The notes under the pieces were generated by a model that made no database searches, was not told the origin of the DNA, and worked only from the letters and a program-made list of their open reading frames with translations. A program made the position numbers and the translations under genes. From positions 1 to 64,000 of the forward strand of contig NZ_MBLO01000216.1 of NCBI RefSeq assembly GCF_001854805.1: a stretch of 64,000 bases of DNA. The letters run 5' to 3'. Of this stretch, positions 12,748-52,850 are shown in pieces. Every line of letters starts with the position of its first letter. Position 1 is the stretch's first letter. This DNA comes from Pseudofrankia coriaricola. GTDB taxonomy: Bacteria > Actinomycetota > Actinomycetes > Frankiales > Frankiaceae.

Positions 12748-12824
12748 CTCCGGGTTTTCTCCGGGTTTTCTCCGCTTCCACTCCGCGTTTACTCCGTGAA
12801 AACTCCGAGAAAGCTCCGTGCCGC
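12748..12824 (+). repeat. Seven CTCCG iterons at exact 11-bp spacing
   Basis: CTCCG begins at 12748, 12759, 12770, 12781, 12792, 12803 and 12814, so seven 11-bp units follow without a gap. The first two units are identical (CTCCGGGTTTT). The others vary after CTCCG and become A/T-rich. This is the lowest-GC patch in the element. Spacing of one helical turn puts all sites on one DNA face, as in initiator or repressor arrays. It lies 210 bp before rep. An origin or a rep operator are both possible. Confidence 0.8.
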
Positions 12825-16539: not shown

Positions 16540-16598
16540 TCGGGGTGGTGGCAGGTGATGGATTCGAACCATCGTAGGCTGAGCCGACGGTTTTACAG
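16540..16598. repeat. att site, right copy (59 bp)
   Basis: Identical to 1940-1998. It forms the 3' half of the intact tRNA-Tyr gene, so insertion leaves the tRNA functional. Confidence 0.92.
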
Positions 16599-16630
16599 AC
16601 CGCTCCCTTTGGCCGCTCGGGCAACCTGCC
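16546..16630 (-). tRNA. tRNA-Tyr (GTA)
   Basis: Read on the minus strand, the gene starts GGCAGGTTGCCCGAG and ends ACCTGCC-A-CCA, with a seven-base acceptor stem. The anticodon loop CTGTAAA gives GTA. A long variable arm makes it a class II tRNA, as expected of bacterial tRNA-Tyr. The T-arm reads GGTTCGAATCC. CCA is encoded at 16546-16548. It is the integration target of the AICE. Confidence 0.96.
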
Positions 16631-17333: not shown

Positions 17334-17459
17334 GCGAACGCGGGAGATCGTCGCCCTGAGGTGAGCGCGGCCGGGTCCCGCGCGGGCCTGGCCGCGCCGG
17401 CTCGGCCATACGGACTGGCCTGGCGGACAGGCCTGGCGGACAGGCCAGATGGACCAGGC

Positions 17460-52242: not shown

Positions 52243-52531
52243 TCTATCGTCCACGATCGTCCAGGCACCCGGACCATGATCCGGATCGCATGCCGTACGA
52301 CTCTCTGGCGGCCCGAAGCCCCGGAGGCCGCGGGACCTGTTCCCGAGCCCCGTGATCCTGGGACCTCTGGCCTTGTACTGGCCGACGGTAACCCGCCAGC
52401 CAGTGGCTTCCGTCAACTTGTCTAAGTTCTGACCCTTCCCGGGCAAACGGCGCGACGATTGTCACAGTCGGCCGACCACCGCTGTCCAACCGCCGACATC
52501 CCATGGGCTCGGATGTCCGGCCGCACGGCGC

Positions 52532-52643
52532 CCCGCGACGCCGCCCCAGCGACCAGTAAGCGCAACTCACCCACACCTGTCCAGTCGCGCCGCGGCCCGC
52601 GACACCGTTCCAGCGACCAGTAAGCGCAACTCACCCACACCTG
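52532..52643 (+). repeat. 48-bp direct repeat, two copies
   Basis: Copies at 52532-52579 and 52596-52643 have period 64 bp and share an identical ~34-bp core with CCAGCGACCAGTAAGCGCAA. They lie in a gene-free stretch upstream of the kinase gene (minus strand). Confidence 0.8.
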
Positions 52644-52683
52644 GCGACAGCGCATCGGCGCAGTACCAACCCGACCACGTCGT

Positions 52684-52760
52684 CAGCCCGGCCCAAGCCC
52701 CACCACCGCCATATGCCAGGGGCCCGGCACCACGCGAGGAGGGCGCCCAGCGCCCGACAC
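52684..52760 (+). repeat. R2 dispersed repeat, copy 2
   Basis: Same family as 28256-28333. The hairpin here is GGGCGC-CCA-GCGCCC. It runs directly into a tandem array. Confidence 0.65.
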
Positions 52761-52850
52761 GGGGCGAGCGCGCCCAGCGCCCGACACGGGGCGAGCGCGC
52801 CCAGCGCCTCGCCCCGACACGGGGCGAGCGCCCAGCGCCTCGCCCCGACT
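52743..52850 (+). repeat. Tandem GC-rich array derived from R2 end
   Basis: Units built on GCGCCCAGCGCCCGACACGG and GGCGAGC repeat about four times with 27- and 33-bp spacing. The array seems to have grown from the right end of R2 copy 2. The whole 52243-53141 interval contains no convincing gene, only repeats and the R1 copy D. Confidence 0.7.

Follow-up and report, generated by a model that had tools for sequence, protein, structure and literature searches.

The 64-kb window analysed here (the whole stretch of 64,000 nucleotides) carries a 14.6-kb AICE inserted in a tRNA-Tyr gene and delimited by a 59-bp direct repeat (Table 1). The relatives of this element with named records are from Candidatus Frankia nodulisporulans and Parafrankia, and the host belongs to the same family. 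The rep product matches PF20199 (E=2.4e-138), so that a first-pass annotation of this DNA was right to recognise a RepSA-type rep in an AICE. Structure models are of low confidence both for the Tra C-terminus (pLDDT 52) and for the Xis-like protein (pLDDT 58; helices and a two-strand wing). Array 1, the main subject of this work, lies in the gap between ssb and rep, 210 bp upstream of the rep ATG; the rep, xis and int genes follow it, and tra is 4.6 kb upstream. Just left of attL, the sequence at 1674-1814 matches the C-terminal 47 residues of the element's integrase with 85% identity, and reads as a leftover of a related element that once occupied this tRNA.

Table 1. Features of the element and of its ssb-rep gap (positions in the window).
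Feature	Start	End	Strand	Remarks
attL	1940	1998		59-bp copy of the tRNA-Tyr end
GntR/UTRA (KorSA-like) regulator	3184	4014	+	
tra, FtsK/SpoIIIE-type DNA translocase	5788	8097	+	C-terminal region possibly winged-helix
ssb, single-stranded DNA-binding protein	12224	12649	+	
Extra segment (array 1 and P1) relative to the L042 ssb-rep gap	12744	12890	+	Approximate, edges uncertain
Array 1	12748	12824	+	Seven 11-bp units, each an invariant CTCCG plus 6 A/T-rich bp
Promoter-like site P1	12831	12859	+	GTGACA-N17-GAAAGT; last repeat starts 17 bp upstream
Array 2	12907	12972	+	Six 11-bp units, RCC core: TACCG, TGCCG, TGCCA, TGCCG, TGCCG, AGCCT
Possible promoter P2	12970	12999	+	TTGTGC-N18-TCAGAG; L042 counterpart TTGTGT-N18-TTAGAG
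rep, RepSA-type rolling-circle initiator	13034	14677	+	AAAGGAGG ribosome site
xis-like, small HTH_17-like protein, 84 aa	14679	14933	+	E=0.009, under the family cutoff
int, tyrosine recombinase	14930	16417	+	
attR	16540	16598		3' part of tRNA-Tyr (16546-16630, minus strand)

The seven copies of CTCCG in array 1 start at 12748, 12759, 12770, 12781, 12792, 12803, and 12814, that is, at exact 11-bp steps. The units read, in order, CTCCGGGTTTT (twice), CTCCGCTTCCA, CTCCGCGTTTA, CTCCGTGAAAA, CTCCGAGAAAG, and CTCCGTGCCGC; CTCCG alone is constant among them, the 6-bp remainder shifts from a TTTT to an AAAA type, and the first two units hold TCCGGGT, from which the later ones diverge. When the window was scanned for 5-mers repeated at a fixed period (6-40 bp), array 1 alone reached five or more copies in a row; none of 60 first-order Markov shuffles went beyond 4 (longest runs of 3 or 4, against 7 here), a triple of the CTCCG pattern had no match in 100 dinucleotide shuffles, and no second array of this pattern was found elsewhere in the 11.2-Mb genome. 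The start positions, the shuffles and the genome-wide uniqueness all bear out the gapless sevenfold repeat described in the first-pass annotation, as well as its one helical turn per unit, and the array is confirmed as genuine. Its description as the most A/T-rich part of the element is close to correct: array 1, with a GC content of 58% against 72% for the element, ranks in the bottom 1% of 77-mers, although the minimum of 53% is reached elsewhere, at about 4011. An RNA-element reading was dropped, as an Rfam search gave no match, and a terminator-like prediction at 12749 is explained by the self-complementarity of CCGG. The units stand head-to-tail, without inverted symmetry. Dimeric GntR regulators are expected to bind palindromes, not head-to-tail direct repeats; with no palindrome in array 1, an operator for GntR (KorSA) was rejected, and GntR binding, proposed at first, is equally unsupported by the many array-bearing elements without a GntR relative.

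The array is followed by P1, which was recognised by the comparison of loci; it fits the sigma-70 consensus poorly, and a consensus promoter scan gave no match. An array followed by GTGACW-N17-GAnnGT is found in the window and at loci L057, L182, L190, and L195. The GAAAGT half occurs in the window, L182, and L195, the latter two both reading GTGACT-N17-GAAAGT (GTGACT-N17-GAGTTT in L098), and CTCCGTGAAAACTCCGAGAAARCTCCGTG-N10-GTGAC is common to the window and L057, so that array end and promoter behave as one unit. With a spacer of 17, 5 of 33 regions match the P1 pattern (mean 0.09 and maximum 2 over 500 shuffles), and other spacers give 0-1. Because the bare pattern occurs twice in the 64-kb window, for 0.54 expected, the weight of P1 comes from its position and from this comparison. 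This geometry is a feature of one clade of units. In others the promoter is of the TTGAC type, and the related units of L179 and L180 have, as read by eye, TTGACA/G-N17-GATAGC-like sequences. An array serving an activator or a repressor would be expected just where array 1 stands relative to P1.

The upstream regions of homologous rep genes were then compared for the same 11-bp phase. L040 and L041, whose Rep proteins come closest to that of the window (88-89% and 67-70% identical, respectively), have neither array 1 nor array 2. Another orthologue, L042 (Candidatus Frankia nodulisporulans), is colinear with the window from the ssb end to the rep start, save for the missing array 1 and adjoining promoter. 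Array 2, which is nearer to rep and had been overlooked in the first-pass annotation, is phased at 11 bp (p=0.002 against shuffles) and is common to the window and L042, the latter having 22 bp more, exactly two extra units. Similar GCC/ACC-core repeats are present upstream of rep in L045, L046, and L047. The comparison thus gave a divided answer, array 1 being missing and a different 11-bp array being shared, from which it follows that the ssb-rep region holds two arrays of different history. P2, at the end of array 2, might be a second promoter, although it is a weak candidate.

These comparisons bear directly on replication. It had been supposed at first that iterons are not expected in rolling-circle elements, and that array 1 might be an origin or a rep-control array. 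The premise was mistaken: the bind locus of the pMV158 double-strand origin (dso) is made of three tandem 11-bp direct repeats (PMC9943647). A dso is bound and nicked by the RepSA of pSAM2 (PMC3218068), and array 1 (or array 2) could, by its position before rep, be the bind region of a RepSA double-strand origin; the likeness to pMV158 extends to a GC-rich contact region and to a rolling-circle replicon. We nevertheless hold this to be very unlikely. Array 1 is missing beside the rep orthologues (67-88% identity), and it is shared with L057, whose Rep is only 40% identical to that of the window; no conserved nick hairpin or motif was recognised, whereas the nick hairpin of pMV158 lies 84 bp away from its repeats. 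Arrays are also found upstream of tra with no RepSA within 20 kb (L122 and L124), which makes a replication-origin role less likely and, together with the divergent Rep of L057, excludes Rep as a general reader of the arrays. What stands of the initial proposal is a control array before rep, which is plausible. Array 2, conserved with the rep orthologues, is by comparison a fair candidate for the RepSA bind region. Upstream of rep, conserved blocks of about 100 bp that are not arrays were also seen, each specific to a Rep clade (L094/L091/L054; L051/L092/L103; L056/L105); they are candidate double-strand origins. Repeat arrays of 17-bp and 19-bp period lie near AICE genes at L054:2011 and L046:5575, respectively.

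If array 1 does not follow rep, one has to ask what it does follow. A DNA search of 35 Frankiaceae genomes returned only one clearly similar sequence, at L057, in the same genus: an array of about 20 units with the same first 29 bp as array 1, ending in CTCCGTGAAAACTCCGAGAAAACTCCGTG. Among the proteins of the window element, Rep alone has a counterpart in L057, which carries a serine recombinase. Downstream of the L057 array are genes for small membrane proteins, an OB-fold-like protein (by our reading of its sequence), an FtsK-type Tra, and Rep, and a 161-aa protein is encoded divergently. Pattern scans revealed further arrays in the same place at L052, L055, L090, L093, L096, and L123, arrays before other Tra types at L122 and L124, and an array with a GCCGGGT core at L101. 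The protein divergent from the tra operon, with the array between the two, is about 160 aa long and is called div161 here; homologues are encoded at L057, L098, L090, L093, L096, L101, L052, L055, L123, L122, and L124. At E<=1e-12, div161 is present in 26 of 395 genomes of the class, all of them Frankiaceae. Searches of Pfam, NCBIfam, PHROGs, and PDB gave no match of note and no recognised DNA-binding domain, but we read in the protein a possible helix-turn-helix-like stretch (e.g., TERREEAARHYRVEGDSFRKTHEKKLLKALA) and a proline-rich tail.

In order to compare arrays without a bias towards known repeats, 18 div161 loci were gathered by protein profile alone, blind to arrays. Twelve of them have an upstream 11-bp phase at p<0.05, for a Fisher value of 2e-12 that treats the loci as independent and is overstated, some of the 18 being related; lag 11 is the strongest among lags 7-25. 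The arrays lie between div161 and the tra operon for all three Tra types, with the Tra gene 2-4 kb past the array in most loci. Their cores differ between elements (TCCGGGT, GCCGGGT, GCCGTGT, ACCGAGT, GCCCAGT, and TCCCGTC), and phase and place are constant, a combination that fits a co-evolving regulator. Array 1 shares the xCCxxGT-like 11-bp core of these units (TCCGGGT in its first two) and their GTGACW-N17-GAnnGT promoter at a fixed distance past the array, and its start and end are near-identical to those of the L057 unit; it differs from them in lying between ssb and rep, without an adjacent divergent div161 and without a tra operon directly downstream. No div161 homologue was found in the window element, and the only L057-like copy found in the host genome is truncated and on another contig (L187:9301-9860, contig C147; N-terminally truncated, 53% identical to the L057 protein over the matched part). 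The host genome has, on contig C125 (L182:10900-11300), another array with core ACCGAGT and its own div161 and Tra. A phase of 12 bp, with TGCCCGTTT units, replaces that of 11 bp upstream of the div161 gene at 15201 in L184, which is the same region as L170.

Array 1 is one of four among ten TCCG arrays from the pattern search that lack an adjacent div161. The three others, 11-bp arrays at L087:8279, L088:8673, and L125:517 (minus strand), lack both Tra and div161 over the region covered and possibly belong to non-autonomous elements or relics; that of L088 adjoins xis-int in a tRNA-His. Their genomes (G001 for L087 and L088, G002 for L125) encode div161 with a TCCGGGT array elsewhere (L093 and L177).

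Another explanation would make array 1 a clt, the cis-acting locus where an FtsK-like Tra assembles for conjugation, with one Tra recognition sequence in every unit. The unit AAAACCCGGAG, read on the minus strand, is nearly equal to GACCCGGA, the 8-bp recognition sequence (TRS) of TraB from the Streptomyces plasmid pSVH1 (PMC5133688), and in both cases repeated sites stand on a conjugative element; L057 and L087 units hold GACCCGGA exactly, and two array 1 units match it at 7 of 8 positions, the remaining units less. L087, L088, and L125, with no Tra found in the fetched region, keep their arrays, as a mobilised element would. Core similarity also correlates with Tra similarity (rank r 0.55, partial 0.51, p 2e-4) better than with div161 similarity (0.28), a Mantel test result that is mixed and not decisive. 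On the side of div161, L101 and L180 share the same core with div161 proteins 69% identical and unrelated Tra proteins (25%), and cores differ between L101 and L057, whose Tra proteins are 58% identical. Against a clt, the Tra C-terminal wHTH is nearly identical in L180, L195, L182, and L190, with different cores, and the Tra55/57 types with arrays have no visible wHTH. The Tra of L041 is 88% identical to that of the window over 760 residues, yet no array-1-like array is found there in 20 kb. In 61 Streptomyces genomes, GACCCGGA clusters have no preferred 11-bp spacing and are mostly of short, often 6-bp, period, and array 1 is joined to a promoter at a fixed spacing. We consider a clt possible but unlikely.

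Could the element's own proteins read the array? Rep, Xis, and Int were rejected as universal partners. For array 1 itself, binding by the HTH_17-like Xis, which would control rep-xis-int in the way RdfS controls its own promoter, has in its favour that xis is within the operon that would be driven from the array 1 region, and that head-to-tail polymers are formed by MerR-like/RDF proteins such as RdfS and BldC; in the extended filaments of BldC each protomer takes up one turn of DNA, and RdfS, bound to its own promoter, controls ICE excision and transfer (PMC11963761). The HTH_17 match of Xis is weak, however, the other fetched elements yielded no relative of Xis, and L057 has nearly the same array with a serine recombinase. 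RdfS sites have no consensus motif, in contrast with the strong core of the arrays described here. We see little chance for Xis as the reader.

Known promoter boxes offer another parallel. The SARP core is TCGAGCG; the array 1 core resembles neither this sequence nor the PHO core, and no SARP or PhoP relative was identified as a binder. The SARP/AfsR and PHO boxes of Streptomyces are, like array 1, direct repeats with an 11-bp step at promoters, made of about 7-8 conserved and 3-4 variable bp (PMC10936776, PMC4415409). An afs box, however, has two repeats overlapping the -35, the 3' one lying 8 bp from the -10, whereas the Frankiaceae arrays have 7 to about 20 repeats that end upstream of the -35, the last repeat of array 1 starting 17 bp upstream of the -35-like hexamer. 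In a survey of Frankia AICEs (PMC3218068), we came across no mention of phased arrays.

On balance, we lean towards reading array 1 as a transcriptional operator of head-to-tail sites, part of a promoter-linked unit captured before rep-xis-int; such a capture would fit the absence of the segment from the otherwise colinear L042 gap. The array would offer seven candidate binding sites that recur with every helical turn on the same face of the DNA, along which a small DNA-binding protein would load cooperatively and switch P1 on or off, P1 reading into rep-xis-int. The same kind of unit would control the FtsK-type tra operon of Frankiaceae AICEs from its place between this operon and the divergent div161; set before the replication operon, it would make rep expression depend on a regulator of transfer, which could come from another element or be a local protein not yet recognised as such, Xis being the first candidate. 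In pSAM2, the rep-xis-int operon is activated by Pra, and pra is repressed by KorSA; the choice of AICEs between the integrated state and replication or transfer is understood mainly from this case. For the many AICEs of nitrogen-fixing Frankia and its relatives, a conserved array, a promoter, and an uncharacterised protein would together make a definite switch that can be put to the test. The results also correct the idea that repeats of this kind, when they precede a rolling-circle rep, can only be an unexpected origin.

A broader proposal, which we put forward more tentatively and regard as somewhat doubtful, is that Frankiaceae elements carry an undescribed system in which div161 is paired with a private 11-bp-phased array of fast-changing core, and that the window is a case of array swapping, a foreign tra-operon operator standing before rep. 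If so, specificity groups could make it possible for one genome to harbour several AICEs, and the swap seen in the window would wire replication to the regulator of another element; the matched variants of array and protein would then be a natural set in which to follow the evolution of one-turn-phased DNA recognition.

Other repeats are present in the window outside the element. Positions 1-1474 are occupied by a long 96-bp/396-bp tandem repeat coding array (a repeat protein), and short tandem repeats are found at 17404-17459 (13 bp, CGGACAGGCCTGG) and at 52514-52849 (units of 27-64 bp).
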